Part shown: in pieces, positions 14 to 38,830 of the stretch
Layout of the letters: the number at the start of each line of letters is the position of its first letter
Numbering within the stretch: position 1 is the first letter of the stretch
Assembly: GCA_026390345.1 (NCBI GenBank)
Contig: JAPLGD010000031.1
Coordinates: forward strand, 1 to 41,354
DNA: 41,354 bases
From: Candidatus Bipolaricaulota bacterium
GTDB taxonomy: Bacteria; Bipolaricaulota; Bipolaricaulia; UBA7950; UBA9294
Reading direction: 5' to 3'
Notes under the pieces: model-generated
What the model was told of the DNA's origin: nothing
Database searches by the model: none
What the model saw: the letters and a program-made list of their open reading frames with translations, nothing else
Position numbers and translations under genes: made by a program

Positions 14-1096
14 TCAAGCCGCGGCGCCTCCTGGCTGACCTGACGTTTGGTCGTGAATCGGCTGGAGATGGAGCTCGTCGGCGCGGTGGCAGGCAACGAA
101 GTGTTCGTTCCCCAAGTCGCGGTACAACGGCGCGTCCTTCGCGCACACGTCGACCGCGTAGCGGCACCGCGGGTGGAAGTGACACCCCGGCGGCGGCGAC
201 ACCGGGCTCGGCACGTCTCCCTGGAGGATGATGCGGTCCACGGAGTAGTCCGGGTCCGGCACCGGCACCGCCGACACCAACGCCTCGGTATACGGGTGCT
301 TCGGGTCGGCGAACAGCCGCTCCGTCGACGCCAACTCGACGATCCTCCCGAGGTACATCACCGCCACGCGGCTGCTGATGTGCTTCACGACCGACAGGTT
401 GTGCGCGACGAACAAATACGTCAGACCGAACTCCCGCTGCAGGTCTTCGAGCAGGTTGAGCACCTGCGCCTGGATGGACACGTCGAGCGCCGACACCGGC
501 TCGTCGCACACCACAAGCTGTGGGTCGAGCACCAACGCCCGTGCAATCCCAATCCGCTGCCGCTGCCCACCCGAGAACTCGTGCGGGTACCGCTTCATGT
601 GCTCCGGCTTCAGCCCCACCGCCCCGAGCACATCTTGCACCCGCTTCTTCCGCTCTTCGCCGCGCGCGATCCGATGCACCAAGAGCGGCTCACCGACGAT
701 CCCCCCCACCGTCATCCGCGGGTTCAACGACGAGTACGGATCCTGGAAGATGATCTGCATGTCGCGCCGCAGTGCCTTCAGCTCGCTGCGCGACGCCTTG
801 ACGACGTCGACGAGCCTCGCTTCGCCCGCCGTCCCTCCGGCCATCCTCCGGCTGCGGAACACGATCTCGCCCTTCGTCGGTTCCACGAGACGAAGAATCG
901 ACCGGCCGGCCGTCGTCTTGCCGCACCCGCTTTCCCCCACGAGGCCCAGCGTCTCCCCCTCGCGGATGAACAGGTCGATCCCGTCAACCGCTTTCACCGC
1001 CGCCTTCACTCGTCGGAACGAGCCCTTGCGTACGGGGAAGTGCTTCACCAGTCCCTTGACATCCAACAGCACCGTGTCGCTCTGTGCCACCGCCAT
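14..1096 (-). CDS. Oligopeptide/dipeptide ABC transporter ATP-binding protein (DppF/OppF-like)
   Basis: In-frame ATG at 1096 ([22 protein letters not shown]) inside the longer ORF 14..2194; Walker [12 protein letters not shown], signature [14 protein letters not shown], Walker [16 protein letters not shown]-terminal oligopeptide domain [14 protein letters not shown] overlap with the upstream gene. Confidence 0.93.
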
Positions 1097-2094
1097 CACC
1101 TCTTCCCCTCGTAGAGCCAGCACGCCGCCGTATGCCCCGCCGCCACTTCCTCGAGCGGGGGCATCTGCGTCTTGCAGATCTCCATTCGCTGCGGACACCG
1201 TGGCTCGAATCCACACCCCGGCGGCGCGTCGCTCGGGTCGGGCACGACGCCTTCGATCGGCACCAGACGCTCCTTGCGCCGCTTGAGCGACGGGATCGAG
1301 TGCATCAACCCCTGCGTGTACGGGTGCTGCGGCGCGTGGAAGATCTCCCGCACAGGCGCCGCTTCGACAATCCGCCCTAGGTACATCACCGCCACGTCGT
1401 CCGCCATCCCAGCGATCACGCCCAGGTCGTGGGTGATGAACTGAATCGCCGCCTTGAACTCCTTGCGCAGCGCGTTCATCAGCTCCAACACCTGCGCCTG
1501 GATCGTCACGTCGAGCGCCGTCGTCGGCTCGTCGGCAATCAACAGCTGCGGGTTGCACGACAGTGCCATCGCGATCATCGCCCGCTGCCTCATCCCGCCC
1601 GACAGCTGATGCGGGTACTCGTCCACCCGCTGCTCGGGCAACGGAATCCCCACTTCGTGAAGCATCCGGATCGCCTGCTTCCGCGCTTCCTTCTTCCTCA
1701 GCCGCTGGTGCAGAATGATCGCTTCCATAATCTGGTACCCGATCGTGAACACCGGGTTCAAGGACGTCATCGGCTCCTGGAAGATCATCGCGATCTCGTT
1801 CCCGCGGATCGCTCGCATCGCCCGCCCCTTCGGCGGCAGCTTCGCCAGGTCCGTCGTCTTCTCCCCACGGTGGTACAGAATCTCCCCGTTCGCGATCTTC
1901 CCAGGAGGCGACTGCACGAGCCCCATGATGGCGAGAGCCGTCACCGTCTTCCCACACCCGCTCTCCCCCACCACCCCGAGCGTCTTCTCCCGCTCGATCG
2001 TGTACGTCACCCCGTCCACCGCACGGACGATCCCATCCTCCGTCCCGAATTGCACTTCGAGATTCCGTATCTCCAGAAGCGCAGAGGATGTCAT
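1096..2094 (-). CDS. Oligopeptide/dipeptide ABC transporter ATP-binding protein (DppD/OppD-like)
   Basis: Likely start [16 protein letters not shown] at 2094; Walker [12 protein letters not shown], signature [15 protein letters not shown], Walker [16 protein letters not shown]-terminal GCGFEPRCP. Confidence 0.93.
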
Positions 2095-2248
2095 CGACGC
2101 TCGGGCCTCGCGGGGACGCACCCGTCCGCTTCCTCGGCCGGGAAGTTGCTCGACGCCAGGAACCTTCTCGTGTTGGCCGCGGCCCATGCCACATCGGCGA
2201 TCTGCGACGACGTCGCGGAGATCCTACCAGCCGGTTTCCCTGCGTAGC

Positions 2249-4132
2249 TCACGTCTCCTCCCTTCCTTCGGGTCCTACGACCTCGGATGAAGCCAGCCAG
2301 CCGCAGAACGGCGATAGACCGGCCTTTCGCAGCCGTTCGTCACTCGGACCTCGATCGTTCCACCCTCGGATGTCGTAGTACACGTCCAGCTCCGCCTGGA
2401 ACGCCCGCCGGTCGAACGACGCCCCCGCAGAGGCTCCTTCCGGCAGCGGCTCGTAGAACCGCGACGGCAGGTCATCGTGACGGCGGCGGTACCCGGCCAG
2501 CCCCGAGCCAAGTCGCAAGAGGTCGAAGTTCCTCGCCCCGATCGCGAGCATCTCATCGACCGAGACCTCGAGCCCCGTTGCGTGCTCGAGCAGCCGACGG
2601 ATCTCGGGGTAGTTGTACCGCGCGCCGACCATCTGGTTCGTGAACGCGCACATCACGAGCGAGTTCGTAAACGATCGAACGTTCTCGTAAACCACGGCGG
2701 CCCCCGCCTTCCCCTCGAGCCGTCGCCGATCGAGGGATCCCTTGACCCCAAGTTCGGGCGTCGGGTCGGCCATCTCGATCATCGGATCGTGCATCCCCTC
2801 CATGTGCGTTGCCCCCCGGGGACTCGCCGCGTACGAGAGCCCGAACCCGGGCTTGCCTCGCGGGTCGTGCATCGGAAGCTCCACGCCCTTGATCGCCTGA
2901 ACCAAAGACGGATCGCCGATCGAACGCGCCCACTCGACCGGTCCATCGGCAATCTCGTCCCCCATTCCCTCCCGAAGCGCAATGCGGCGGACCCATCGCA
3001 CGACCGCCGCCGGGTCACCCCAGCGCACGTCTTCCTCGATCAGGCCCCGCTCCGACGCCTCCATCAGCGCCGCAATCGCTACACCGCAAGAGATCGTGTC
3101 GATCCCTAGAGCGTTGCACAGCTGGTTCGCAAGGGCGATCGCCGGCAGGTTGTCGCACAGGCAGAGCGAGCCGAACGCCGCCAGGGTCTCGTACTCCGGG
3201 CCGCCGTACTCCGGATCCACGGCCTCGCCCTCGTACGACGCTCGAACGACCCGCTTGCACCGAATCGGACAGCCGAAGCACGTCTCGCGCCCGACGAGGA
3301 TGGTGTCAACCATGGCTTGGCCGCAGATGGCCGCCGCGCCCTCGAAGGTTCCTCGCTGGAAGTTCTTCGTGGGCAGGATCCCCGTCTCGTTCAGCCCGAG
3401 GACCCCTCGAGACGTTCCGTGCGTCCCGAGGCTTTTGAGCCCGGGATCCTCGGCGAGCGCCCTAACGAAAGCGGCGCGCGCCGTGGCGTACGCCGCCTTG
3501 TCGTGAAGGGGCTTCTCAGTGCTTCCCTTCACGACAATGGCCTTCAGACGGGCTGCCCCCATCACGGCCCCGAACCCGGGCCGCCCGATGGCCCGCGACT
3601 TGTCGTGGATGATGCACGCCATCTGCACACGCCGCTCGCCCGCCGGGCCGATGACCGCCACACGGGCCCCCGGATGGCGCGCCGAGAGGATCTCCGTGGC
3701 CGGCCCCGTCTCCATTCCCCACAGGTCCTGAGCCTGGCGCAGTTCCGCGCGCCCGTCGGCGAGAAGCAGGTAGCACGGCTCCGCAGAGGCTCCACGCAGA
3801 AGGATTCCGTCGTATCCGCTTCGACCGAGCTCGTGCCCCACGAACCCGCCGGCCGACGCATCCATGATGGTGCCGCTCTTTGGAGACCGCCCCACCACAG
3901 CGTGCCGCCCTGCCCCCGCAAGCCCCGTCCCCTGGAATGGCCCGGTGGCGAACACGAGCGAGGGCTCCTCAGGGTTCGACGTCCCCGGCCGCGCCGAATC
4001 GAGAATCAGGCGCGCCCCCATCCCGCGGCCGCCAAGGTGGAGGGCGTACCACTCCTCGGGAGGCGTCACATCGCTCAGACGTCCGGAAGACAGGTCGACG
4101 TCCAAGTAACGACCGAACACGCCTTTCATCAT
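2249..4132 (-). CDS. Aldehyde ferredoxin oxidoreductase family protein (AOR 1)
   Basis: MMKGVFGRYLDVDLSSGRLSD...GGRGMGARLIL; GRSPKSGTIMDASAGGFVGHELGRSGYDGILLRG; CxxCxxxC in ETCFGCPIRCK; late Cys in LVMCAFTNQM. GGAGG upstream of ATGATG. Confidence 0.92.
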   Translation of the reverse strand: MMKGVFGRYLDVDLSSGRLSDVTPPEEWYALHLGGRGMGARLILDSARPGTSNPEEPSLVFATGPFQGTGLAGAGRHAVVGRSPKSGTIMDASAGGFVGHELGRSGYDGILLRGASAEPCYLLLADGRAELRQAQDLWGMETGPATEILSARHPGARVAVIGPAGERRVQMACIIHDKSRAIGRPGFGAVMGAARLKAIVVKGSTEKPLHDKAAYATARAAFVRALAEDPGLKSLGTHGTSRGVLGLNETGILPTKNFQRGTFEGAAAICGQAMVDTILVGRETCFGCPIRCKRVVRASYEGEAVDPEYGGPEYETLAAFGSLCLCDNLPAIALANQLCNALGIDTISCGVAIAALMEASERGLIEEDVRWGDPAAVVRWVRRIALREGMGDEIADGPVEWARSIGDPSLVQAIKGVELPMHDPRGKPGFGLSYAASPRGATHMEGMHDPMIEMADPTPELGVKGSLDRRRLEGKAGAAVVYENVRSFTNSLVMCAFTNQMVGARYNYPEIRRLLEHATGLEVSVDEMLAIGARNFDLLRLGSGLAGYRRRHDDLPSRFYEPLPEGASAGASFDRRAFQAELDVYYDIRGWNDRGPSDERLRKAGLSPFCGWLASSEVVGPEGREET

Positions 4133-4196: not shown

Positions 4197-5063
4197 TCAT
4201 ACCAGACCCTCACGGATCGTTGCCGGCAGCAGCCGCGGGGATGCAGCGACCCGGATTCCGGCGCGTTCGAGGATCTCGGTCTTCTGCGCCACGGATCCCT
4301 GTTTCGCGCTCATCAGGGCGCCGGCGTGGCCCATCCTCTTCCCGGCAGGCGCCGTCCGTCCTGCGATGTACGCACAAGCAGGCAGGTCGTAGTCCGCAAG
4401 CGCGGCGGCAAGCCGTTCCTCCTGGGTTCCACCGATCTCGCCGACCACGACCAGTCCCTTCGTGTCGGGGTCGGCCGCGAACCAAGGCACGAACTCCGCC
4501 ATGTCCGTCCCGATGATCGGGTCTCCGCCGACGCCCACCATGGTGGTGACGCCCATTCCCGCAGCCTGCAGGATCCCCGCCACTTCGTACGCGAGCGTGC
4601 CGCTTCGCGAGAGCATTCCGAGGCGCCCGGGCGAGAAGACGTTGACCGGCATGATGCCGAGCTTTCCGAATCCCGGAGAGATGATGCCGGGCGTGTTCGG
4701 CCCGATCATCACGGCTCCGGATTCGCGGCAGGCCTCTCGGATCTCGAGCGTGTCGTACACCGGAACGTGCTCCGCGATCACGACAATGAGGCGCAGCCCC
4801 GCCTCAACAGCCTCCAGGGCCGCCGCCCTCACGTGGGGCCCAGGGACGAACGACACGGAAGCGTTCGCCTGAACCCGCTCGACGGCCTCACCGACGGAGT
4901 CGAAGACGGGAAGGCCGTGGAGGTCGGCGCCCCCCTTCCCCGGAGTGACGGCGCCGACGAGGCAGGTACCCGCCTTCAGCATCCACTCGGTCTGCCGCGC
5001 ACCGATGCGGCCGGTCCCTCCCTGAACGATGGCCCGCGTGCTTGAGGTCAGAAGAATACTCAC
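4197..5063 (-). CDS. Succinyl-CoA ligase alpha-like subunit (ADP-forming acyl-CoA synthetase)
   Basis: [60 protein letters not shown] histidine motif; ATGA overlap with the SucC-like gene. Confidence 0.9.
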
Positions 5064-6199
5064 GATCTCACCCCCAGAAGACGCGCCAGCTTCTCGACTG
5101 CCTCTTCGGTCTCAATGCCACGCACCGTCGGAATCCCGGCCGCCTCGAGGAGGCCCCACGCCTCCTCCTGCTCGTTGCCGAACAGCTTCACCACCACGGG
5201 AATCCCCATGTCTCGGGTACGAACCGCGGCGACAAGGCCCCGCGCCGCCTCGACCATCGGGTTGATCCCCCCGTAGAGGTTGACGAGCACGCCGCGCAAC
5301 CCCGGCTGATCGAGCACCAGGTCGAGGGCTCCCTGTACGAGATCCGCCGTGATCCGGCCGCCCGTCTCGAGAAAGTTGGCCGGCCGAAGCCCCGCCGCTT
5401 GGAGAAGGTCCATGCTTGCCATGCCGAGTCCGGCACCACTGGCGAGGATGCCGACCTCGCCGTCCAGTTCGACGAACCCATTCAGACCCAACGCTTCGGC
5501 GCGGGCCTCGCGATCGCTCTTGTCGCGTCGGGACGCCTTCGCCGCGGCGATCCCCTCGTGCCGGTAGAGCGCGTTGTCGTCCACCTCCACCCGGGCGTCG
5601 GCCGCCACCAGACTCCCATCGCTCGCGATGAGGACGGGATTGATCTCCGCCAAGAGAAGGTCGTTCTTCCGAACGCAGGCGTAGAGCGACTCGGCAAGCT
5701 GGCCGATCGCACGGCCGAGCTTGGTCAGGCCTTGCTTCTCGAGGAACGACCGCAACGCGGCGAGGTCCGGGCCGCGCCGGACGGCCACCGGCAGGCGCAG
5801 CACCTTGTCCGCCGGTAGGGCTTCGACCTCCATTCCCCCGCTCGAACTGAAAAGGAGCCACAGCTGCTCGGACGCGTAATCGAGGAAGTACGAGATGTAG
5901 AGCTCGCCCCTCGCCGGCACGCGGCGTTCCACAAGCAGGGCCTCGATGCGAAGATCTCGAAGCGACGACCCGAGGAGGCGTCGGGCCTCCTTCTGCACCG
6001 CCGCGTCATCCCCCGCCTGCGCGACTCCGCCGGCCTTTCCTCGTCCACCCCCCAGGACCTGCGCCTTCAGCATCACCGGGTAGCCGAGGTCCCGTGCCGC
6101 CGACTCTGCCTCGGCGGCCGATGTCACGACCTTCCCTGCCGGGACCGCGATGCCGCACTCGGCGAAGAGCCGTTTCCCCTCATGCTCGTGAAGTTTCAC
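5060..6199 (-). CDS. Succinyl-CoA ligase beta-like subunit (ATP-grasp)
   Basis: GTG start (VKLHEHEGKRLFAECGIAVPAG); KAQVLGGGRGKAGGV; LLAEINPVLI; VELDGEVGILASGAGLGMASMDLL. Confidence 0.9.
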   Translation of the reverse strand: MKLHEHEGKRLFAECGIAVPAGKVVTSAAEAESAARDLGYPVMLKAQVLGGGRGKAGGVAQAGDDAAVQKEARRLLGSSLRDLRIEALLVERRVPARGELYISYFLDYASEQLWLLFSSSGGMEVEALPADKVLRLPVAVRRGPDLAALRSFLEKQGLTKLGRAIGQLAESLYACVRKNDLLLAEINPVLIASDGSLVAADARVEVDDNALYRHEGIAAAKASRRDKSDREARAEALGLNGFVELDGEVGILASGAGLGMASMDLLQAAGLRPANFLETGGRITADLVQGALDLVLDQPGLRGVLVNLYGGINPMVEAARGLVAAVRTRDMGIPVVVKLFGNEQEEAWGLLEAAGIPTVRGIETEEAVEKLARLLGVRS

Positions 6200-7079
6200 A
6201 GCGAAGGCTGAATCCCTCCTTCTCGATCGTCGTCCATTCCTCATCCACCGCCCTCTGCAACTCTTCGTACACGTCGTCGGACAGGTGTGCAAACCGGGAC
6301 TGCGGCGCGAAGAACTCCTTCACCGGCTTTCGCTTCTTCGGAGAGAGCGACAGCCGCAGCACCCCGTGGTCCAGCTCATACAGCTTCCACAGCCCACTCT
6401 CGACCGCGGTCCGAGCCAGCTCGACCGAGTTCGCCGACGGGAATCCCCACCCGAGCGGGCACGGGCTCATGATGTGCAGGAACGTGGGGCCCTTGACCGC
6501 GACGGCCCGCTCCACCTTCCGCGTGAGATCCGCCGGGTATGCCGGACTCGCCGTCGCCAGGTACGGAATCCCGTGGGCGGCGACGATCTTCGCGATATCC
6601 TTGCGAGGCTCGGCCTTGTACCGGCCGAGGGCGCCTCCGGGCGTCGTGCTCGTCTGTGCTCCGCGGGGAGTGGATCCGCTGCGCTGGAAGCCGGTGTTCA
6701 TGTACCCCTCGTTGTCGTAGCAAATGTAAACGAAGGAGTGTCCTCGCTCGATGGCCCCCGACAGCGCCGCCAGTCCGATGTCCACGGTCGCTCCGTCCCC
6801 TGCGAATCCAACTAGCGTGACCTCTTGTCCTTTCGCTTTCGCGCTCGCTTCCAGACCGGTGAGGAACGACGCCGTGCTGGCGAACGCCGTTCTCAAGACC
6901 GGCACGTTGAACGTGGCCTTTGGGAAGCTCGTCGCCACGGCGCCCATGCAGCACGCGGGGATAACCATGATCTGATTAGGGCCGATCGCCTCCGTGACAA
7001 GCCGTGCGATCAGCACCGCGCCGCACCCCGCGCACGAGGAGTTGCCCGGCATCACAAGCGGGGTCTCATTCCTTGCCAT
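6180..7079 (-). CDS. 2-oxoacid:ferredoxin oxidoreductase beta subunit (TPP-binding, PorB-like)
   Basis: GNSSCAGCGAVLIARLV; GFAGDGATVDIGLAALSGAIERGHSFVYICYDNEGYMNTGFQRSGSTPRGAQTSTTP is the classic PorB TPP motif. Confidence 0.94.
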   Translation of the reverse strand: MARNETPLVMPGNSSCAGCGAVLIARLVTEAIGPNQIMVIPACCMGAVATSFPKATFNVPVLRTAFASTASFLTGLEASAKAKGQEVTLVGFAGDGATVDIGLAALSGAIERGHSFVYICYDNEGYMNTGFQRSGSTPRGAQTSTTPGGALGRYKAEPRKDIAKIVAAHGIPYLATASPAYPADLTRKVERAVAVKGPTFLHIMSPCPLGWGFPSANSVELARTAVESGLWKLYELDHGVLRLSLSPKKRKPVKEFFAPQSRFAHLSDDVYEELQRAVDEEWTTIEKEGFSLRCETSRA

Positions 7080-8274
7080 CAGGGGTCCTCCCGTCTCGAT
7101 ACGCCTTCACCCCAAACCAGGTCTCGAGAGGGACCGGACGGCCCTGCATCGAGGCATCCGCCCACTCGAGCGCCTTCTCCAACTCCGTCGGCCCGACCGG
7201 CGCGCCGCCGAATCCGCCGACGGCGCTCAGGACGACGGGACGACTCTCCCGACCGTACAGCGCTCCCTTCACCTCTCCCGCCAACGGGCCGCCGCAGCCG
7301 AACGAGTACGCCCGATCCCACACAACGGCCACGCGGGCCCCCGCGAGAGCCTCGGCCATTTTCGCGTCGGGGAACGGCCGATAGCTGCGAACCGAGATCA
7401 CGCCCACCTTCCTCCCAACGGAACGCCAGGCCCGGACCATGCTCCGGATCGTCGATGCCGCCGAGCCAAGGGCCACGAAGACGATCTCCGCGTCACTCAC
7501 CTGCTCGAGCGAGAGGAGACCTCCGGAGTCTCGACAGAACTGCTCGGCGAACGCTTCGCCAACCTCCTCGATCACGACGAGCGCCCGGCGCGCGGCGTCC
7601 TTCTGCAGCGCGCGGAACTGAATGTAGTGCTCGGGGGACACGACGCCGTTGATCGTCTTTGGGTGCTCAACGTCGAGCCAGTCCACGGCCGGGCGCGGTG
7701 CCAGGAATCGGTTGACGACCTCGGGCTCCGGTACGACAACCGGTTCGTACGTGTGCGACAGAGTGAACCCATCCAGGTTCACCATGACCGGCAGCTGAAC
7801 CCGCGGATCCTCGGCGATCCGGAAGGCCTGCAGCGTCATGTCCAGCGCGTGCTGGTTCGTCTCTGCGAACAGCTGCAGCCACCCGGTGTCGCGCTGCGAG
7901 ATCGCATCCTGATGGTCCCCGTAGATGTTCCACGGGGGCGCCACGGCGCGGTTCACGTTCGCCATGACGATGGGGACCCGCGCCGAGGCCGCCCAGTGCA
8001 TCATCTCGTGCATGTACAGGAGCCCTTGCGACGACGTAGCCGTGAAGGCCCGCACGCCGTTCGAGCTTGCGGCGATCGTCGCTGCCAGTGCGCTGTGCTC
8101 GGACTCCACTTGGACGAACTGGGCCTTCATCTCCCCGTCGGCGACGAACTTCGCAATGGCTTCAATGATCCTCGTCTGCGGTGTGATGGGATACGCCGCC
8201 ACCACGTCCACCTGCGCCAGCCGCGCGGCGTAGGCCACCGCCGACGTAGCCGTCATGTTGCGACCCGACGTCAT
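7066..8274 (-). CDS. 2-oxoacid:ferredoxin oxidoreductase alpha subunit (PorA-like)
   Basis: VDVVAAYPITPQTRIIEAI; VESEHSALAATIAAS; FTATSSQGLLYMHEMMHWAASARVPIVMANVNRA; GDHQDAISQRDTGW. Confidence 0.94.
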   Translation of the reverse strand: MTSGRNMTATSAVAYAARLAQVDVVAAYPITPQTRIIEAIAKFVADGEMKAQFVQVESEHSALAATIAASSNGVRAFTATSSQGLLYMHEMMHWAASARVPIVMANVNRAVAPPWNIYGDHQDAISQRDTGWLQLFAETNQHALDMTLQAFRIAEDPRVQLPVMVNLDGFTLSHTYEPVVVPEPEVVNRFLAPRPAVDWLDVEHPKTINGVVSPEHYIQFRALQKDAARRALVVIEEVGEAFAEQFCRDSGGLLSLEQVSDAEIVFVALGSAASTIRSMVRAWRSVGRKVGVISVRSYRPFPDAKMAEALAGARVAVVWDRAYSFGCGGPLAGEVKGALYGRESRPVVLSAVGGFGGAPVGPTELEKALEWADASMQGRPVPLETWFGVKAYRDGRTPDGKE

Positions 8275-9134
8275 GCTCCCACCTCACCACTCCGAATCGC
8301 CTTGACCGGACATTCCAGGGCGCAGATCCCGCACCCCTTGCAGTACATCAGGTCGATCGTCACCCCGTCCTCGGTCAGCACAACCACACCTTCCGGGCAG
8401 GCAGTCACGCAGCGCCCGCAGCGCACGCACCGCTCCGAATCGACTACGGGGTCGGTAACGCGCCAGCTTCCCGTGCGCCCGGCCCCTCCCTCGCCCGGGT
8501 ACGCCGTGGCAACAATCGGGTAATCGTCGAGGTAGGCAAACGCAGTCTCACCCTTGGCCGCCTCGGCCGTTGCGGATGCAGCCAAGTCGGCGACTTGGAC
8601 CGAGTCCCACGCGCGCCTCGCGGCCTCAACGTTCTTCTCCGCGTGCTTCGCAGGGAACCACTCGCGAATCGCCGTCTCCATCGCCGCTTGACCGACAATC
8701 CCATCGACACGGCACCACGCACCCAGCATGGCCGTGTTCGGAATCTGCCTCCCGAACAAACTCGCGGAGATTCCCATGGCGTCGACCCATGCGATCCGCA
8801 CGGCCACGCTCACGGCAACCTTCGGACACTCGCGCGCATTGACGACGAGCAGTCCACCCGGCTTGATCCCGAGGACCGTGTCGCGCCGTTCCAGGAGCGT
8901 CGCATCCATCACGACGACCGCGTCCGGGGCCGTCACGGGAGTTCGGAGCAGAATGGGACGATCATCGATTCGCAGGTACGAACGAACGGGGGCGCCGCGT
9001 CGTTCCGGCCCGAACTCCGGAAACGCCTGCGCGTTCTTCCCGTCCTTCAGCATGGCATTTGCCACGATGCGGGCGGCGGTCAACCCGCCCTGCCCGCCCC
9101 GCCCATGGATCCTCACTTCTTTCACGTCGACCAC
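8271..9134 (-). CDS. 2-oxoacid:ferredoxin oxidoreductase fused gamma-delta subunit (PorG + 2[4Fe-4S] ferredoxin)
   Basis: EVRIHGRGGQGGLTAARIVANAM (PorG); C-terminal CVRCGRCVTACP and CKGCGICALECP clusters. Confidence 0.93.
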   Translation of the reverse strand: MVDVKEVRIHGRGGQGGLTAARIVANAMLKDGKNAQAFPEFGPERRGAPVRSYLRIDDRPILLRTPVTAPDAVVVMDATLLERRDTVLGIKPGGLLVVNARECPKVAVSVAVRIAWVDAMGISASLFGRQIPNTAMLGAWCRVDGIVGQAAMETAIREWFPAKHAEKNVEAARRAWDSVQVADLAASATAEAAKGETAFAYLDDYPIVATAYPGEGGAGRTGSWRVTDPVVDSERCVRCGRCVTACPEGVVVLTEDGVTIDLMYCKGCGICALECPVKAIRSGEVGA

Positions 9135-28968: not shown

Positions 28969-29124
28969 GTCACGGGCATCGTGCCGGGCGCGGCACTCTG
29001 ATTGACTCGGAGTCGGACGCCCGTTCCGCCTAATGCCTCGGCCGTCGCGATATGCGTTGACACGGGACCATGGGGCCGCTCCCCACCTGGTGGAACGGCT
29101 GCCAGCAGAACGAGGAAGGGAAGG

Positions 29125-29883
29125 ATGATGAAGAAGCAGCTTGAGGCTGTCTGCGACCGTCTGAGGCACCACGGGTTCCGGACCGTGGTTGTCGCCGACG
29201 CGGCAGAGGCTCGGGAGGCGGTGCTGCGCCTCGTCGCTCCCGGCAGCACGGTCGGCGTTGGAGACTCCGCGACCCTCCGACAGATCGGCTCCATCGAAGC
29301 GCTCGAAGAGCAGGGGTGCGCCGTCGTCGACCTGTTCTCCCGCCGGATCTCAGAACTCACGAACGCCAAGAGCATCTCCATGGAGAAGCGGAAGAACATC
29401 GCGCGGCTCGCGATGCACTGCGACGTCTTCCTCACCGGCACGAACGTCGTGACCGAGTCCGGCGCGCTCGTCAACATCGACGGCTACGGCAACAGGGTCG
29501 CCGCCATGATCTGCGGCCCGAAAGAGGTCGTCGTCGTGGCCGGACGCAACAAGATCGTCGCCGACGTGGAAGCTGCCCTGGTCCGACTCAAAAGCGTCAT
29601 CGTGCCCGCCCACGCGCGGACGAAGTGGAAGAACACTCCCTGCGCGGCCACCGACCGGTGCAGCGACTGCGACTCCCCCGAGCGCCTCTGCGGCGTCACG
29701 ACGATCATCGAGCGGGCGCCCGGATACCTGGACGCCGCCCACGTCGTCCTCGTCGACGAAGACCTTGGGCTCGGCTGGGATCCGAGTTGGCCGGAGGACC
29801 GCATCGCGAGGATCCTCGCATCCTACGAGGCCGAGACGTGGCTCAAGCTTGGATCTCGGAAACCCCGGGACACCGCATCCTGA
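29125..29883 (+). CDS. LUD-domain (LutC/DUF162-like) protein with C-terminal Cys motif
   Basis: STVGVGDSATLRQIGSIEALEEQGCAVVDLF; GTNVVTESGALVNIDGYGNRVAAMICGPKEVVVVAGRNKIV; CAATDRCSDCDSPERLC. Confidence 0.82.
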   Translation: MMKKQLEAVCDRLRHHGFRTVVVADAAEAREAVLRLVAPGSTVGVGDSATLRQIGSIEALEEQGCAVVDLFSRRISELTNAKSISMEKRKNIARLAMHCDVFLTGTNVVTESGALVNIDGYGNRVAAMICGPKEVVVVAGRNKIVADVEAALVRLKSVIVPAHARTKWKNTPCAATDRCSDCDSPERLCGVTTIIERAPGYLDAAHVVLVDEDLGLGWDPSWPEDRIARILASYEAETWLKLGSRKPRDTAS

Positions 29884-31331: not shown

Positions 31332-31360
31332 TTGCTTGTGGCCGAGGCTACTTGCATAAT
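31332..31360 (+). promoter_or_regulatory. Possible promoter of regulator 2 (TTGCTT - 17 bp - CATAAT)
   Basis: -10 box ends 6 nt before the ATG at 31367, consistent with a leaderless or near-leaderless transcript. Confidence 0.5.
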
Positions 31361-31366
31361 ACTCTT

Positions 31367-32113
31367 ATGTCAGATGCGAACACCAGCGACCTAGCCAGAA
31401 GGGTGCCCGATTCATGGGACACCTGGCAGTACGGCATCTTTCCTCACCCGAAGAAGAGCGAACTCGCGCTTCAGTACCTGGACGAACTGCTGCGGGACTA
31501 CCCTACCGGGAAGAAGCTGCCGTCGGAACGTGAGGTCGCCGCACAGCTCAAGATCACCCGTTCTCCCGTACGAGAGGCACTGATTGCCCTTCAGATGGTC
31601 GGGAAAGTGCGAATCGAGCCGGGAGTCGGAGCCTTCTCTGTCGCAGAGGACTCGGGATCGTCGGAGAAGTCCGCCTTCTCGCTCTTGGCGGAAAGCGAGA
31701 GCCCGTTCGAGATCAGCGAACTGCGGAAGGTGCTGGAAGGCGCGATCCTCGCCGCCGCCATCGCCGAACTGACCCCCGAGTCGCTCAAGAGCATCGAGAG
31801 AGCGTTCCAGGGCATGGTCGATGCCCACGCAACAGGAGACATGGACCGCTTCCTCGATGCGCACCGCGAGTTTCACCTGTCGATCGCCGTCGCTTCGGGC
31901 AACAGCATCTTCGAGAGGCTCGCTCGGTGGATGCTCTGCTACGTCATGACCCAGCCGATCTGGGAGATGGTCATGCACCGCCGTCTGCGCGAGACGTCGA
32001 CGCGCATTGTCAACTCGATCGACGAACATCGCGAGATCCTCGACGCGATTCGGGCCCGCGACTCCCAGCTCGCCCAGGCGCTAATGGCGGAGCATTTCGC
32101 CGGCGTAGGCTGA
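31367..32113 (+). CDS. GntR family transcriptional regulator, FadR/FCD subfamily (regulator 2)
   Basis: LPSEREVAAQLKITRSPVREALIALQMVGKVRIEPGVGAFSV; FHLSIAVASGNSIFERLARWMLCYVMTQPIWEMV; close paralogue of regulator 1. Confidence 0.92.
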   Translation: MSDANTSDLARRVPDSWDTWQYGIFPHPKKSELALQYLDELLRDYPTGKKLPSEREVAAQLKITRSPVREALIALQMVGKVRIEPGVGAFSVAEDSGSSEKSAFSLLAESESPFEISELRKVLEGAILAAAIAELTPESLKSIERAFQGMVDAHATGDMDRFLDAHREFHLSIAVASGNSIFERLARWMLCYVMTQPIWEMVMHRRLRETSTRIVNSIDEHREILDAIRARDSQLAQALMAEHFAGVG

Positions 32114-32126: not shown

Positions 32127-33209
32127 TCAGGCGGCCGCCGCCTGCGCCAACAGCGCCCGCAGGAGTTCCGTCGCCTTCACCATGTCTGCGACCGCGATGT
32201 GCTCGTCCGTTGTGTGCGCCGACTTGCCCCCGTACCCGAGCAGCACGGTCTCAACTCCCCGCATGTTCAGGATGAGCGCGTCCGACCCGCCCCGGGAGAT
32301 CTCCGTCCGCGGCTCGAACCCGACCGCCGCGATGGCCGCCTTGGCCATTTTCACGGTGGGCGCGTCTTCCGCCAGACGAGACGCCTCGTACTCGACAGAC
32401 ATCGCTACCTTGACCGTCGCCCCCGCCTCGCGCGCCGCGTCCTCGAACGCCCGCTTCATCGCTTCCGCTTGCCGTAGGCACTTCTCGTGGTTCAGGCTGC
32501 GGCACTCTCCCTGGATTCGAACCTCCGCCGGAACGCCGTTTCGGATGGCTCCCCCATGGATGATTCCCAAGTTGGCTGTCGTTTCCTCGTCGATTCGCCC
32601 CTCGGGCATCCGGACGATCGCCTGCGCTGCGACGCGGATCGCCGAGATCCCGGCCTCCGGCCGGAGGCCGGCGTGTGCGGCGCGCCCGGTAATCGTGACA
32701 TCGAACGCGACATGGGTCGGACCCCCGATCGTCACGGTGTCGAGGCGGCCTGAGTCGACGACGAACCCTGTTCGGGCCGAGATGAGCGACATGTCGAGGT
32801 TCCGCGCTCCCACGAGGCCGATCTCCTCCCCTCGCGTCAGGACGATCTCGAGGGGCGGGTGCACGTCTGCGGTCTCCACAGCTTCGACGATCTCGGCGAT
32901 CGCCGCCTTGTTGTCGGCGCCGAGGACCGTGTCCCCCCGAGATCGGATGACTCCGTCCACAATCATCGGTTCGATCCCGACACCCGGCTTCACGGTGTCG
33001 GCATGGGCGCCGAGCAGGATTGCGCGGGTGCCGCCGTTCCCTTTGGCGGGCACCCGCGCAATCAGGTTTCCGTGCCCGTCCACGATGCACCGACCTCCGA
33101 GTCTGCGCGTGATCTCGCCTCGCATGTAGTCGATGAACCGGGCTTCATTGCCGGACTCGCTGTCGATCCTCACCATGTCGCAGAACGCTCGAATCATACG
33201 GTCAGACAT
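32127..33209 (-). CDS. M20-type metallopeptidase (PepT/ArgE-DapE superfamily)
   Basis: Preferred start MSDRMIRAFCDMVRIDSESGNEARF; LLGAHADTVKPG; VLGADNKAAIAEIVEAV; LTRGEEIGLVGARNLD; KSAHTTDEHIAVADMV. Confidence 0.88.
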   Translation of the reverse strand: MSDRMIRAFCDMVRIDSESGNEARFIDYMRGEITRRLGGRCIVDGHGNLIARVPAKGNGGTRAILLGAHADTVKPGVGIEPMIVDGVIRSRGDTVLGADNKAAIAEIVEAVETADVHPPLEIVLTRGEEIGLVGARNLDMSLISARTGFVVDSGRLDTVTIGGPTHVAFDVTITGRAAHAGLRPEAGISAIRVAAQAIVRMPEGRIDEETTANLGIIHGGAIRNGVPAEVRIQGECRSLNHEKCLRQAEAMKRAFEDAAREAGATVKVAMSVEYEASRLAEDAPTVKMAKAAIAAVGFEPRTEISRGGSDALILNMRGVETVLLGYGGKSAHTTDEHIAVADMVKATELLRALLAQAAAA

Positions 33210-33456
33210 ACGTCTCCTTCGCCCGGATCCCAGGACCGAGTTCCCTTTTCTCGTTCCGCAACCGCACCATGCATCCCGGCAACCCACATCGGGCGCGCTC
33301 GGGCTGCCCACGGCGCGGACGAGCGCGGTATCGCCCGACGCGCCTGTGTCCTACGAACAGCTGTGTCGGATGGCCGGTAGGGTAGCCGAGGTGTCAACGG
33401 CGCGCAAAGCGAGCCGCATCCTACGGCCACCGGTTACGTTCTACCTGACCGCAGGA

Positions 33457-33485: not shown

Positions 33486-33503
33486 CGGTATACTGGTATA
33501 CCG
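33486..33503. promoter_or_regulatory. Operator C: CGGTATAC-TG-GTATACCG
   Basis: 8-nt perfect inverted arms with a 2-nt spacer; related to operators A and B. Confidence 0.7.
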
Positions 33504-33646
33504 GTTCGCCACGGCCCGCTTCCTGCGACGGCCAAGCGCACAGCGCCTTTACGAGGGGGCAGCGGCGGGTCGCCGAACAACGACCAGAGGGAACAGAGCG
33601 AAGGAGAACCAGGCGGCTGGACCTACCCAGCAAGGAGGCAGTGCAG

Positions 33647-35191
33647 ATGAAGCGCGCAGGCCTAGTACTGAGCATCCTCGTCCTTCTCGTCGCCGCAAGC
33701 GGCTTGGTCGGACAGGCTGCCGAGAGCGTGCTGCGAGTGCGGTTAGCGAACGAGATCGTCAACCTCGACTACGCCAACTCGCAGTCCGTGAGCGACACGG
33801 TCGTGCTCTATCAGGTGATGGAAGGGCTCGTCGAGATGGATTGGACGTCTTCCGAGATGCCGATCCCGATCCGCGGGCGGCTCGCGAAGAGCTATGAGAT
33901 CTCCGAGGACGGGAAAGAGATCCTGTTCACGATCTACGAGGGAATCAAGTTCCAGCGCGGGTACGGAGAGCTCACGGCTGAAGACGTTGCCTACTCGATG
34001 AAGCGCATCATGGATCCCGCCGTGAAGTCGCGCATCGCCACGTACTACGCGGCCGTTGCGAGCATCGACGTCGTCGGCCCCTACCAGGTGAAGGTCACGC
34101 TCAAGGACTCTAGCGCCCTGACGTTCATCCAGGCGTTGACTTGGAACGGCGCAAGCTACATCACGAGCAAGAAGGCCGTCGAGGAGCTCGGCGCAGACTT
34201 CAACCGCCGCCCGATCGGAACCGGCCCGTACCAGTTCGTTAGCTGGAGCCCGGGGACCGGCGTCTACCTGGAGGCGTTCGACGAGTACTGGGGAGCCCCG
34301 GCGTGGGGGTTCGGGAAGCCTGGGTATGACAAGATCGAGATGCTCCTGATCGCCGACGACATGATCGCGCTGGACGCGCTTGAGACCGGCGAGCTTGACG
34401 TCGTCGGACTCGTCGGCAAGGGCAGCGTCGAGCGGGCTCAGCAGATGAAGGACATCACGCTGTCGCACGCGGCAAGCGGCTCGTGGCAGCACATGGTGTC
34501 GTTCAATGTCAAGCGGCCGGCCATCAGCGACGTCCGCGTCCGACAGGCTCTTGCCTACGCCCTGGACTTGAAGACGATCGCCGAGCGACTCGGCCCCATG
34601 GAGAAGTACTGGCCCTGCCCGTTCAACCCGTTCGTCTTCTCGGCGACCGATGAGTTCTGGAAGTACGACTACAACCCAGCCAAGGCCAAGGAGCTTCTCG
34701 CCGAGGCCGGCTACCCGAACGGGTTCACGCTCAAGCTCATCTACCCCGCCGTCTATCTGTGGGGCGACGTGGCGCTTGAGACGGGCCACTATTGGGAGCA
34801 GATCGGCATCGACGTGGACTTCGAGGTCATCGAGTACTCCCTGTACGCGACGGTTCGACGCGACGGCAACTGGGACGCTTCAGTCGCGTCGCAGACCGTG
34901 TTCTCGCCGTACCTGTACGCCGAGCTCTACATGACGACCGCGTTCCGGAACTACACCGGCTACGGGACGCCTGAGCTCGACGCGCTGATCCTGAGGGCGG
35001 CGGCGACCCCCGACGAGGCCCAAGCGGAAGTGCTGTGGCGCGAGTTCCAGCAGATCGTCACGAATGACCTTCCGTACATCTGGGGCCCCGCTCAGGTCGC
35101 GTGGTTTGCGATCTCGAACCACGTTGCCGGGGTCATTCCGGTTGCGTTCTCAACTCTCGTGAACCTCGCAGCGGCTCATCCCGCTCCGTAG
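33647..35191 (+). CDS. ABC transporter substrate-binding protein, family 5 (SBP 3)
   Basis: MKRAGLVLSILVLLVAASGLVGQAAES signal peptide after AAGGAGG; VRQALAYALDLKTIAERL; AKELLAEAGYPNGFTLKL. Confidence 0.93.
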   Translation: MKRAGLVLSILVLLVAASGLVGQAAESVLRVRLANEIVNLDYANSQSVSDTVVLYQVMEGLVEMDWTSSEMPIPIRGRLAKSYEISEDGKEILFTIYEGIKFQRGYGELTAEDVAYSMKRIMDPAVKSRIATYYAAVASIDVVGPYQVKVTLKDSSALTFIQALTWNGASYITSKKAVEELGADFNRRPIGTGPYQFVSWSPGTGVYLEAFDEYWGAPAWGFGKPGYDKIEMLLIADDMIALDALETGELDVVGLVGKGSVERAQQMKDITLSHAASGSWQHMVSFNVKRPAISDVRVRQALAYALDLKTIAERLGPMEKYWPCPFNPFVFSATDEFWKYDYNPAKAKELLAEAGYPNGFTLKLIYPAVYLWGDVALETGHYWEQIGIDVDFEVIEYSLYATVRRDGNWDASVASQTVFSPYLYAELYMTTAFRNYTGYGTPELDALILRAAATPDEAQAEVLWREFQQIVTNDLPYIWGPAQVAWFAISNHVAGVIPVAFSTLVNLAAAHPAP

Positions 35192-35213
35192 GCGAGCAGC
35201 CCAAAAGCCAAGG

Positions 35214-35248
35214 CCCGGGCACGTCCGCATGGAGCGGACGTGCCCGGG
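35214..35248 (+). other. Intercistronic stem-loop between SBP 3 and DppB 3
   Basis: CCCGGGCACGTCCGC-ATGGA-GCGGACGTGCCCGGG, perfect 15-bp stem, 5-nt loop. Confidence 0.8.
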
Positions 35249-35277
35249 ACCTAGCCGGCATGTTAGGATGACAAGCG

Positions 35278-36225
35278 ATGGCCCTTCTCAAGTACACTTT
35301 CTCACGGACCGTGCGCGGCGTTGTCTCTGTTTTTGTCATCGTGACGATCGCGTTCTTCGCGATCCGACTGGTTCCGGGGGACCCCGTCGACGTGTGGCTT
35401 GGGGACTACGCGACGCCTGAACTCATCGCGCAAACGACCCAAGCGTGGGGACTCGACAAGCCGCTCGTCGTGCAGTATTTCGTGTTCCTTCGGCAGCTCG
35501 CGAAAGGCGACCTCGGCACATCCTTGCGCGCCAACGCGTCCGTGACGTACTTGATTGGCGAGGTCTTCCCCTACACGGTGCGTCTGATGATCGCGGGAGC
35601 CGTGCTTAGTGTGTTCTTCGGCGTGCTTGTCGGGGCCTTCGCGGCCGTGCGCCACAACTCGTTCGGGGACGTAGCATCGATGACGGCGTGCATGATCTTC
35701 CTATCCATTCCCGGTTTCGTGCTCGGATACCTCCTGATCTACCTCTTCGCCGTCACCTGGAGGATCTTCCCCGTCATCGGAGGCGAGAAGGCCCTGAGCG
35801 CCGCGGCGCTTTGGAGGCACCTGACGTTGCCGGCCTTGTCGCTCGGGCTCGGCTACGCGGGCACCATCGCGCGGATGACGCGCTCGACGATGGTCGAGGT
35901 CCTGAACTCCGACTACATCCGGACAGCAAGGAGCAAGGGGCTGCGCCAGTCCACGATCGTCTTCAAGCACGCGATGCGAAACACCCTCACGTCGCTCGTC
36001 AGCATGATCGGCGTCCAGATCATCGTCATGCTCGGAGGCCTCGTGGTCACCGAAACGGTGTTCTCGCGCCCGGGACTGGGACGGCTCTACTTCACCGCGG
36101 TGAGCGCGCGCGACTACCCCTTAATGCAGGGCAGCATCCTGGTCATCGCGGTGTGCGTCGTGGTGGTGACGTTCCTGGTCGACATCAGTTACGGGATCAT
36201 CGATCCGCGAATTCAGTACACCTAG
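35278..36225 (+). CDS. Dipeptide-type ABC transporter permease (DppB-like, module 3)
   Basis: FSRTVRGVVSVFVIVTIAFFAIRLVPGDPVDVWLG; DYIRTARSKGLRQSTIVFKHAMRNTLTSLVSMIGVQ; VFSRPGLGRLYF. Confidence 0.93.
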   Translation: MALLKYTFSRTVRGVVSVFVIVTIAFFAIRLVPGDPVDVWLGDYATPELIAQTTQAWGLDKPLVVQYFVFLRQLAKGDLGTSLRANASVTYLIGEVFPYTVRLMIAGAVLSVFFGVLVGAFAAVRHNSFGDVASMTACMIFLSIPGFVLGYLLIYLFAVTWRIFPVIGGEKALSAAALWRHLTLPALSLGLGYAGTIARMTRSTMVEVLNSDYIRTARSKGLRQSTIVFKHAMRNTLTSLVSMIGVQIIVMLGGLVVTETVFSRPGLGRLYFTAVSARDYPLMQGSILVIAVCVVVVTFLVDISYGIIDPRIQYT

Positions 36226-36249
36226 GGGACGAAGCGTGGCGGGGGAACC

Positions 36250-37092
36250 ATGAAGCGGCTTCTGAAGAGCAAGATGGCGGTGAGCGGAGGGATCGTTGTC
36301 GTCTTGGTGTTGATCGCCAGCCTTCTGGCCCCGTGGGTCGCTCCGTACTCCGTCAAGGACTTCACCCGCGACCTCCTCGCCCCTCCTTCCGTGACGCACC
36401 TCTTCGGGACGGATTCGTTCGGGCGAGATGCCCTGAGCTTGGTTCTTCACTCCGGGCTTGAGACGCTCGGCATCTCGCTCCTCACGCTCGTGATCTCCGG
36501 GCTCATCGGAATCGTCTGCGGAATCGTCTCCGGGTACGTGGGCGGATGGACCGACAAGACCCTCTCGATGGCCATGCAGGGCATCATGTCGTTTCCGTCG
36601 ATGATGGTGGCGTTGCTGGTCATGGGGATCTTCGGGACGATCGGGCGCGCTTCGCTCATCGGAGCCATCTCCGTAACATTGATCCCGCGGTTCTCGATGA
36701 TCATGCGCGGCGCGACGATTCCGGCTCGCGACGCCGAGTACGTTACCGCCGCCCAGGCTGTCGGCTTGTCCCGCTGGCGCATCCTCTGGCGCCACATCGT
36801 GCCGAACCTCGTCACGCCGATGGTCGTCGTCTGCAGCACCTACCTGCCGTCCATCATCCTGCTCGAGGCCTCCCTCAGCTTCCTGGGGTTCGGCGCTCCC
36901 CCCGACGCGCCGACGTGGGGCCGCATCGTCTCCGAGGGCGGGAAGTACTTCCGAATCGCGCCGTGGCTAGTCATGTTCCCCGGCACCGTCATCGCCGTGA
37001 CGGTCATCGGCTTCAACCTGCTCGGCGAGGGAATCCGCGATGCGGTCGATCCACGGATCCGGGGGAAGCTGACCGCTAAGTCCATCCGCTAG
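36250..37092 (+). CDS. Dipeptide-type ABC transporter permease (DppC-like, module 3)
   Basis: HLFGTDSFGRDALSLVLHSGLETLGIS; EYVTAAQAVGLSRWRILWRHIVPNLVTP; GFGAPPDAPTWGRIV. Confidence 0.93.
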   Translation: MKRLLKSKMAVSGGIVVVLVLIASLLAPWVAPYSVKDFTRDLLAPPSVTHLFGTDSFGRDALSLVLHSGLETLGISLLTLVISGLIGIVCGIVSGYVGGWTDKTLSMAMQGIMSFPSMMVALLVMGIFGTIGRASLIGAISVTLIPRFSMIMRGATIPARDAEYVTAAQAVGLSRWRILWRHIVPNLVTPMVVVCSTYLPSIILLEASLSFLGFGAPPDAPTWGRIVSEGGKYFRIAPWLVMFPGTVIAVTVIGFNLLGEGIRDAVDPRIRGKLTAKSIR

Positions 37093-37144
37093 GCGGTCTC
37101 CCGAGCGAGGCCGGCAGCGCATGTTCGAGAAAGGAGCCAATGCC

Positions 37145-38830
37145 ATGGAAACCACGCTTCTTCCGATGCAGGGGCCGAAGGAGGCCGTCCACGGGAAGAG
37201 AGCCGTCTGCAGCACGGCCCACCCGATCGTGACCGACACCATCATGAAGACGATGAAGGCCGGCGGGAATGCCGTTGACGCCGCCATTGCAGGGAGCATG
37301 GTACAGGCCGCCGTCGAGCCGGACATGAGCAACCACGCGGGGACCGTGACGTTTCTGTACTGGGAGGCGAAGTCGGGGAAGGCCTACCAACTGAACAGCA
37401 CCGGCACGCTCGTTCCGGGGCTCCCTCCGTTCCGTCCGCTTCCCGCCGGGCTCGGCATGCTCGTCCCCGCAGGCGTCGAGCCCGCGCCGTGCGCGTGCAT
37501 CCCCGGATTCATGCCGGGCATGAAGGCGCTCTACGAACGATTCGCCACGAGACCCTGGGCGTCCCTGTGCGAGGACGCGATCTACTGGGCCGAGGAGGGC
37601 CACCCCGTCTCCTCGTTCGAGTTCGGCGTTCTCGAGTCGGAGATGCCGTCACACGCCTACTTCCCGGAGAGCCGGGAGCTCTTCATGCCGGACGGGCACA
37701 CCCCGCAGGTCGGGGAGCGGTTCCGCAACCCGAAGCTCGCCCAGACCCTGAAGCGGCTCGCCCAGGAGGGGCCTGACGACTTCCTCACCGGCGTGTGGGC
37801 GCAGCACTTCGTGAAGGTCGCGAACGACCTCGGCTGGCCCATCGAGATGCGCCACATGACAGCCATCCCGCCGCGGTGGCAGGAGCCGTTGCGCTATCCC
37901 CACCGCGGGTACGAGATCCTTCAGCTCAGTCCTCCGGAACGCACCGGGCTCTTCAGCGCGTACGTGCTCGGCATCCTCGAGCACCTCGGCGTCACCGAAC
38001 TCGGCCACTACACGGAATCGGCCGAGAGTCTCTACTACATGGCCCACGCGCTGCGCTGGGTCGACAACGAGCTCGTCTACCTGCAAGATCCGCTGATCTG
38101 GGACGTTCCCCTCGAGCCGTGGCTGTCGACCGACTACCACAGGATGGTCGCCAGCGTCCTTCGACACAGCAAGCCGAAGATCGATCTGACCGATCATTTG
38201 CGCCTCTACTACGGCGCTTCCCGCCTCGTCGCCGCAGGGCTCCCCGTCGCCGGCCCGGGAAAGCCGCACCCCCCAATCGGAAGCTGCGAACTGAGCATCG
38301 TCGACCGCGAGGGAAACTGGGTCCAGATGATGCACACAATGCAGTCGGGCGGGATCCCCGGTGTGGTCATCGACGGCGTCCCCATGAACGGCTCGAACGC
38401 CGTCCCCACGATGAAGTCGCGGCTTTGCGTCTCCGGCTGGCTGACCGGAGGAGGTCGCATCCGCTGCGTGATCGGAAACACCATCGTCCTCAAGAACGGC
38501 AAGCCGTGGCTTTCGCTCGGTACGCCGGGGAACGTCCACGTCACCGTGCCCCAGGTTCTGTCGAACATCCTCGACTACGGGTACGAGCCGTACGAGGCGA
38601 GCGTCCTTCCGCGCATGCTGCCGCTTCGCGACGACTACGTCCTCGAGATCGAAAGTCGGCTCCCGCCAAAGGTCATCGCGGATCTTGCGCGGCTTGGCAT
38701 TCTCATCCACCCGCTCGCGCCCTACGACTACCACAAGGGCTCGTACCAGATCTGCTGGAAGGACCCGAAGACAGGGACGATGAGCGCATGCACCGACCCG
38801 CGAAGGTGCGGGAAGGCCGACGGATTCTGA
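37145..38830 (+). CDS. Gamma-glutamyltransferase (GGT)-family Ntn-hydrolase-fold protein, divergent active site
   Basis: AGGNAVDAAIAGSMVQAAVEP; CIPGFMPGMKALYERFATRPWASLCEDAIYWAEEGHPVS; GSCELSIVDREGNWVQMMHTMQ; NTIVLKNGKPWLSLGTPGN. Start chosen after GAAAGGAG; 37121 also possible. Confidence 0.85.
   Translation: METTLLPMQGPKEAVHGKRAVCSTAHPIVTDTIMKTMKAGGNAVDAAIAGSMVQAAVEPDMSNHAGTVTFLYWEAKSGKAYQLNSTGTLVPGLPPFRPLPAGLGMLVPAGVEPAPCACIPGFMPGMKALYERFATRPWASLCEDAIYWAEEGHPVSSFEFGVLESEMPSHAYFPESRELFMPDGHTPQVGERFRNPKLAQTLKRLAQEGPDDFLTGVWAQHFVKVANDLGWPIEMRHMTAIPPRWQEPLRYPHRGYEILQLSPPERTGLFSAYVLGILEHLGVTELGHYTESAESLYYMAHALRWVDNELVYLQDPLIWDVPLEPWLSTDYHRMVASVLRHSKPKIDLTDHLRLYYGASRLVAAGLPVAGPGKPHPPIGSCELSIVDREGNWVQMMHTMQSGGIPGVVIDGVPMNGSNAVPTMKSRLCVSGWLTGGGRIRCVIGNTIVLKNGKPWLSLGTPGNVHVTVPQVLSNILDYGYEPYEASVLPRMLPLRDDYVLEIESRLPPKVIADLARLGILIHPLAPYDYHKGSYQICWKDPKTGTMSACTDPRRCGKADGF

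Follow-up and report, generated by a model that had tools for sequence, protein, structure and literature searches.

A rarely carried, probably catabolic island of Bipolaricaulota with three modules sharing a private triple-repeat operator

Gene content of the window

The window (the whole 41,354-nucleotide stretch analysed here, GC content 64.7%) is contig C85 of G000, a 1.98-Mb metagenome-assembled genome (MAG) that is 92% complete and lies near Candidatus Bipolaricaulis. It carries uptake and catabolic genes arranged in three modules, each headed by a promoter at which we found the same triple-repeat operator. Gene content was called with Pfam and NCBIfam, gene starts being approximate, and this bears out the preliminary description of three Dpp-type uptake modules accompanying a ferredoxin-linked branch of 2-oxoacid, SucCD-like and aldehyde:ferredoxin oxidoreductase (AOR) enzymes.

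The minus strand, from 19218 to 14, holds 18 genes in the order GntR1, PreA1, nitrilase homologue, DUF3830a, SBP1 (solute-binding protein), DppB, DppC, D-2-hydroxyacid dehydrogenase, DUF3830b fusion, second D-2-hydroxyacid dehydrogenase, 2-oxoacid:ferredoxin oxidoreductase (POR) gamma-delta, alpha and beta, SucC-like, SucD-like, AOR1, OppD and OppF. About 18 tightly packed genes had been announced for this strand; the number stands and about 12 of the 17 gaps are overlapping or at most 25 nt, but five are larger (about 219, 191, 152, 109 and 65 nt). Beyond this run come an aminotransferase, then PreA2, DUF3830c, flavodoxin, AOR2, SBP2, DppB, DppC and a LUD protein, followed by a beta-propeller protein, GntR2 and an M20 peptidase, and finally SBP3, OppB, OppC and a hydrolase like gamma-glutamyltransferase (GGT). 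Three plus-strand genes had been overlooked: GntR2 (31352-32113), DUF3830c (22540-22944) and the flavodoxin (23008-23505).

A triple-repeat operator at three promoters

The single octamer GGTATRCC, with at most one mismatch, is mildly enriched in the window (42 occurrences against 27.5 expected; 1/100 shuffles). The complete site consists of three tandem 8-bp units, (YGGYATRC)x3, which was searched with at most three mismatches in G000 and in two other genomes, G076 and G077, the reversed pattern serving as control.

19215..19238, minus strand: Operator 1, units CGGCATAC-TGGCATAC-CAGTATGA, 2 mismatches, overlapping the -10 element and start codon of the GntR1 operon
19258-19230, minus strand: Operator 1 promoter, TTGACA-17-CATACT
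G076:C187 7620-7643: conserved counterpart of Operator 1
21082..21105, plus strand: Operator 2, units CGGTATGC-CGGCATAC-CGGTATAC, 0 mismatches, just 3' of the -10 element of the PreA2 module
21046-21074, plus strand: Operator 2 promoter, TAGACA-17-TATTTT
G076:C187 8051-8074: conserved counterpart of Operator 2
33486..33509, plus strand: Operator 3, units CGGTATAC-TGGTATAC-CGGTTCGC, 2 mismatches, in the divergent M20/SBP3 gap and directly 3' of the -10 element of the SBP3 module
33457-33485, plus strand: Operator 3 promoter, TTGACC-17-TAGTAT
G076:C92 751-774: conserved counterpart of Operator 3

Apart from overlapping registers and reverse-strand readings of these sites, 19215-19238, 21082-21105 and 33486-33509 are the only matches in the 1.98 Mb of G000. 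G076 has matches at three places only, all of them orthologous promoters, and G077, which belongs to the same genus and does not carry the island, has none at this threshold; the reversed pattern gave zero matches in the three genomes. A sigma70 scan of 39 kb returned five distinct promoter-like pairs, three of which end on an operator or at most about 12 bases from one, and the -35/-10 arrangement at the operators is also recognisable in G076. Since the triple repeat is restricted to the island, kept at orthologous promoters and placed at the -10 element each time, the three modules very probably form one local regulon. The proposal of a single operator type over three modules is thus upheld, while the GGTATRCC-type palindrome assigned to each promoter needs correction: the operator is indeed common to them, but its real form is a NanR-type triple direct repeat and not a plain palindrome.

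An extra operator-like site (one mismatch to a looser 16-bp pattern) was seen in G076 at C92 619-634 (locus L116), in the M20/SBP3 gap before M20 and 133 nt from site 3; no counterpart of it was found in the window.

Regulators of the NanR-like type

18415..19218, minus strand: GntR1, FCD-type GntR regulator, NanR-like (Pfam FCD 1e-20, GntR 4e-9; NCBIfam NanR below cut-off)
31352..32113, plus strand: GntR2, FCD-type GntR regulator (Pfam FCD 5e-25; best NCBIfam model NanR, below cut-off)

The two regulators are 46% identical and score 60 and 90 bits against the NCBIfam NanR subfamily cut-off of 260 bits. In E. coli, NanR is reported to occupy (GGTATA)3 as three dimers, on the downstream side of the polymerase site (PMC8012715), the repeat unit being TGGTATAW (PMC4494728). 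The island shares with this sialoregulon an FCD-GntR regulator, three tandem GGTATA-type repeats with an 8-bp unit, the number of operons (three) and the placing of the operator at or 3' of the polymerase-binding hexamers. It differs in that no sialic-acid catabolic genes were found among the window genes, the regulators fall far below the NanR model cut-off, and the units read YGGYATRC, one of them possibly weak. By analogy, then, the island operator system is NanR-like in its working yet not a member of NanR.

Conservation and distribution of the island

Strong PreA-like matches were found in only 2 of 100 Bipolaricaulota genomes, the window genome and G076, so that the expected co-occurrence in related genomes holds for one other species and not for the remaining 98. 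Completeness of the MAGs is 85-92%. The G076 island is spread over three contigs (C187, C80 and C92), with identities mostly of 78-95% (70% for the beta-propeller protein) and gene order kept within modules. Its OppF adjoins the SBP3-GGT module, so the island genes remain clustered despite rearrangement. The PreA-DUF3830-AOR set occurs twice in the island and keeps its order in G076. PreA1 is 93% identical on a contig of Candidatus Bipolaricaulis STB_77, which we take as G076. A donor search in 389 genomes (about 300 bacterial genera) found only DHOD-like proteins (dihydroorotate dehydrogenase) of about 30-35% identity, with no recognisable homologue of AOR or DUF3830 nearby, and tblastn against plasmids found only proteins about 30% identical, mostly annotated as PreA.

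In other bacteria (L041, L045, L047), DHOD-like ferredoxin proteins adjoin two proteins recognised by eye, an FAD-dependent oxidoreductase and one like alcohol dehydrogenase, an association different from that in the island. Two further Bipolaricaulota loci, L150 (G000:C109) and L152 (G077:C56), carry AOR, AOR, SsnA-like amidohydrolase, a DHOD-like protein, an FCD-GntR regulator, carbamate kinase and carbamoyltransferase in this order, apparently a carbamoyl-phosphate-yielding route for an N-heterocycle or ureide.

DUF3830 proteins and their likeness to Pictet-Spenglerases

15901..16302, minus strand: DUF3830a (Pfam 2e-16; fold and profile match to Pictet-Spenglerases)
10318..11118, minus strand: DUF3830b fusion, in which a 64-bp deletion joins DUF3830b to the downstream open reading frame (ORF); two genes in G076
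22540..22944, plus strand: DUF3830c (Pfam)

The window members pass the gathering cut-off of DUF3830 (PF12903), a domain that was not named in the literature searched. Relative to G076, the deletion costs DUF3830b its C-terminal part; it could be real or an assembly error. In G076 itself (L093), the ORF after DUF3830b has its 3' end repeated upstream at the contig end (9261-9413), either as a tandem duplication or as an assembly repeat.

A profile built from 15 members matched the known DUF3830 structure 3kop (8.5e-43), then TM1367-like proteins, and further reached KslB (3.9e-7), cucumopine-synthase-like proteins (4.5e-7 and 1.2e-4) and McbB (6e-6); no true cyclophilin appeared at E values up to 10. 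Foldseek of the DUF3830 model ranked KslB and 3kop at the top, and in the alignment an invariant His and an invariant Glu of DUF3830 each lie opposite the same amino acid in KslB. For the DUF3830b fusion, AlphaFold gave a model of too low quality for use (pLDDT 42). The Pictet-Spenglerases KslB and McbB couple tryptophan with 2-oxoglutarate (PMC12513458) and with oxaloacetaldehyde (PMC7024544), respectively. The likeness to these enzymes and to cucumopine synthase thus lies in the profile, the cyclophilin-like domain fold and the His/Glu alignment; DUF3830 differs in being a single 133-residue domain without the helical bundle, in a catabolic and not a biosynthetic setting.

On haloarchaeal plasmids, DUF3830 adjoins genes for urate oxidase, HIU hydrolase, OHCU decarboxylase and a Zn-dependent hydrolase, or for hydantoinase A/B. 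About a dozen Bipolaricaulota loci (L054, L082-L092), several of them cut by contig ends and one in G000 (C56), carry a cassette of hydantoinase A, hydantoinase B, DUF3830, M24 peptidase, SBP and DppBCDF, often with an XRE-cupin regulator. This cassette resembles the island in placing DUF3830 beside a dipeptide-type importer (DppABCDF), and differs in its regulator and in that no window-type AOR, POR or PreA-like gene was recognised in it.

Glyoxylate forms amine-carbonyl adducts, allantoate and ureidoglycolate among them. Because of the Pictet-Spenglerase homology and the hydantoinase and urate gene context, we tentatively propose making or breaking of amine-carbonyl bonds as the putative chemistry of DUF3830, a fairly unlikely assignment as it stands. 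A shade more doubtful is the fuller proposal that DUF3830 proteins form a catabolic branch of the Pictet-Spenglerase/cucumopine-synthase fold and act as lyases of carbonyl-amine adducts: those of the island would cleave an opine-, ureide- or imine-like import, releasing an amine together with a 2-oxoacid or an aldehyde for energy-yielding oxidation by POR and AOR, and in haloarchaea the substrates would be glyoxylate-urea adducts, for instance allantoate or ureidoglycolate. The earlier suggestion that DUF3830 performs the entry chemistry has gained support from profile and fold, the activity itself being putative.

The 2-oxoacid, acyl-CoA and AOR branch

11134..12123, minus strand: D-2-hydroxyacid dehydrogenase 2 (Pfam/NCBIfam)
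9122..10099, minus strand: D-2-hydroxyacid dehydrogenase 1 (Pfam/NCBIfam)
6180..9134, minus strand: POR, fused gamma-delta 8271-9134, alpha 7066-8274, beta 6180-7079
4197..6199, minus strand: acyl-CoA synthetase subunits, SucC-like 5060-6199 and SucD-like 4197-5063 (Pfam/NCBIfam)
2249..4132, minus strand: AOR1, with Glu313, His448 and the Cys motif kept
23509..25332, plus strand: AOR2, in both species with Tyr instead of Glu313
19502..20788, plus strand: class I/II aminotransferase, with no counterpart at this place in G076

The POR has all of the alpha, beta, gamma and delta domains and reaches no equivalog cut-off for a substrate type; an oxalate oxidoreductase was rejected, as the corresponding models scored below cut-off and more weakly than the pyruvate and isovalerate types. 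With the SucCD-like genes, it makes a path from 2-oxoacid to acyl-CoA to ATP plausible, and this energy branch is likely. The claimed 2-oxoacid fermentation with substrate-level phosphorylation keeps this part, but its aminotransferase step does not hold in both species, since that gene is missing between GntR1 and PreA2 in G076. Compared with archaeal-type peptide fermentation (POR/VOR, ADP-forming acyl-CoA synthetase and PfAOR), the island has the same PorA, PorB and PorC-D domains, a two-subunit CoA ligase and AOR; it differs in its bacterial host, the gamma-delta fusion, a ligase that is SucCD-like rather than AcdAB-type, the addition of two PreA-like and three DUF3830 genes, and its private regulon.

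Among the 100 Bipolaricaulota genomes, AOR (PF02730) is present in 81 and MoaC (PF01967) in 33, 12 of which are without AOR. Most AOR-bearing members (60) thus have no detectable MoaC, including 23 that are at least 90% complete and the single-contig G004 and G005, which raises the question of the source of their AOR pterin cofactor.

Importers, PreA-like proteins, hydrolases and remaining genes

14212..15792, minus strand: SBP1, solute-binding protein family 5 (Pfam), 43% identical to SBP2
12136..14021, minus strand: permeases DppC1 (12136-12990) and DppB1 (13014-14021) (Pfam)
14..2187, minus strand: ATPases OppF (14 to about 1090) and OppD (1096 to about 2097) (Pfam)
25370..28968, plus strand: SBP2, DppB2 and DppC2 (SBP2 by Pfam; permeases by sequence and homology to DppB1/DppC1)
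33641..37092, plus strand: SBP3, OppB3 and OppC3 (Pfam; OppB3 by homology)
17219..18418, minus strand: PreA1, DHOD-like flavoprotein with two 4Fe-4S clusters (Pfam/NCBIfam, alignment)
21292..22467, plus strand: PreA2, PreA1 paralogue (47%), NxSC motif changed to DLSA
16319..17206, minus strand: nitrilase-superfamily protein, catalytic triad E-K-C changed to D-K-D
37121..38830, plus strand: GGT-superfamily hydrolase, scoring under the GGT cut-off, with Ser or Cys in place of the Thr nucleophile
32127..33311, minus strand: M20 peptidase, PepT-like, above the NCBIfam cut-off (TIGR01883)
23008..23505, plus strand: flavodoxin-like protein (Pfam)
29002..29883, plus strand: LUD-domain protein (Pfam)
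29969-31357: PQQ-like beta-propeller protein encoded within the island, with 70% identity to its G076 counterpart

No other ATPase pair than OppD/OppF was found in the window, and this one is therefore presumed to serve all three importers.

The PreA-like proteins share with PreA/dihydropyrimidine dehydrogenase (DPD) a DHOD-like FMN (flavin mononucleotide) domain and two 4Fe-4S clusters. They differ in having no PreT partner and in several pyrimidine-binding positions, and PreA1, the only one scored on this library, reaches 204 bits against the NF006183 cut-off of 335. In pig DPD, the pyrimidine-site residues are N609, N668, S670, C671 and N736; PreA1 has Y, N, H, C and G at these positions and PreA2 has L, D, S, A and G, whereas canonical bacterial PreA in the same alignment keeps N609, N668 and N736. 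The NxSC motif accordingly reads NMHC in PreA1 and DLSA, without the Cys, in PreA2, and the changed residues are the same in both species. Canonical pyrimidine reduction was rejected on these residues and the NF006183 score; these points, with the missing PreT, qualify the earlier suggestion that the PreA-like proteins may perform the entry chemistry.

The nitrilase-like protein, put forward for the same role, resembles ureidopropionase-type enzymes in sequence; a nitrilase-type entry step was rejected because the catalytic Cys is lost. The GGT-like hydrolase scores 173 bits against the TIGR00066 cut-off of 358, its Thr nucleophile being replaced by Ser or Cys; an HpxW-type oxamate hydrolase was rejected for it, as 5hft, which we take to be HpxW, ranked only mid-list.

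Proposed working of the island and alternatives

Starting from the observed operator and promoter layout, gene content and residue states, we infer all of the following metabolic steps. Without inducer, a NanR-like FCD-GntR repressor on the triple repeats would block the three start sites. The repressor would come off in the presence of an acidic inducer (the substrate, probably, or an intermediate), so that importers and enzymes appear together. The three family-5 ATP-binding cassette importers, probably sharing OppD/OppF, would take up a small amide-, peptide- or opine-like compound, to be opened by the M20, GGT-like and DUF3830 proteins; for the entry step, the strongest candidates are the three DUF3830 proteins, which would form or cleave an amine-carbonyl bond. 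The D-2-hydroxyacid dehydrogenases would provide a 2-oxoacid, and an aldehyde is perhaps also formed. POR would convert the 2-oxoacid into acyl-CoA and reduced ferredoxin, the SucCD-like enzyme would gain ATP from the acyl-CoA, and AOR1 would oxidise the matching aldehyde. The PreA-like flavoproteins (with flavodoxin in module 2) may balance electrons by using or supplying them at low potential. We hold this explanation as a whole, a rarely carried catabolic island of about 40 kb with a private regulon and an unusual fermentation, to be a little better than even.

Several points weigh against it. It names no specific substrate, and a simple peptide may be all that is imported. We infer the single transcript across the 18-gene minus-strand run from sequence. 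The repressor at the triple repeats is most likely GntR1 and/or GntR2, and GntR2 was not found in G076 (85% complete, with contig ends at the expected place). The DUF3830 model is of moderate confidence (pLDDT 66), and a profile from the four window-type members alone finds KslB at E 0.03 only. In both species, Asp replaces the Cys as well as the Glu in the catalytic triad of the nitrilase homologue. When checked against PfAOR (Glu313, His448 and CxxCxxxC; residue roles in PMC13328260), AOR1 keeps all motifs; AOR2 has Tyr at Glu313, a position at which ten other Bipolaricaulota AORs keep Glu. Moreover, the MoaA C-terminal domain (PF06463) and MoaC (PF01967) had no match in G000, G076 or G077, so AOR activity is not assured.

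Ordinary peptide or amino-acid fermentation as in Pyrococcus, with three peptide importers, M20 and GGT-like peptidases, transamination, POR, an ADP-forming acyl-CoA synthetase and AOR for aldehyde clean-up, would reduce the PreA, DUF3830 and nitrilase-like proteins to side activities. Indeed, the M20 protein exceeds the cut-off of its PepT-like model, an existing model already has Candidatus Bipolaricaulis fermenting peptides and amino acids with POR and acetyl-CoA synthetases (PMC6092417), and PfAOR is thought to detoxify peptide-derived aldehydes (PMC13328260). We nevertheless find this somewhat unlikely: the aminotransferase is not kept at its place in G076, one would not expect a private regulon if peptides in general were used, and the PreA-DUF3830-AOR genes do not look accessory, because their sets occur twice and keep their order in G076.

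Catabolism of a ureide, purine or pyrimidine-type compound, in which a cyclic ureide would be attacked by a PreA-like reductase and DUF3830 to yield ammonia and a 2-oxoacid for POR, is improbable. The haloarchaeal urate and hydantoin clusters, the hydantoinase A/B-DUF3830-Dpp cassette of Bipolaricaulota, the AOR-DHOD-carbamate kinase locus in the genus and the ureidopropionase-like sequence of the nitrilase homologue all point to it, but the window has no amidohydrolase, hydantoinase, carbamoyltransferase or carbamate kinase, and both the changed PreA pyrimidine site and the lost nitrilase Cys argue against it. That the three modules are independent and share the operator by chance, or through a generic FCD-GntR liking for GGTATACC, is highly improbable: FCD regulators often bind related boxes (PMC4494728), G000 encodes further FCD-GntR genes and the single octamer is only mildly enriched, but across the whole genome the triple repeat stands only in the island, is kept at orthologous promoters and always lies at the -10 element.

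With the proposed catabolic island, a private regulon that is open to testing is defined for an uncultured phylum, and the DUF3830 domain gains a chemical hypothesis. If true, it would mean that anaerobes can draw energy from amine-carbonyl adducts by a new route.

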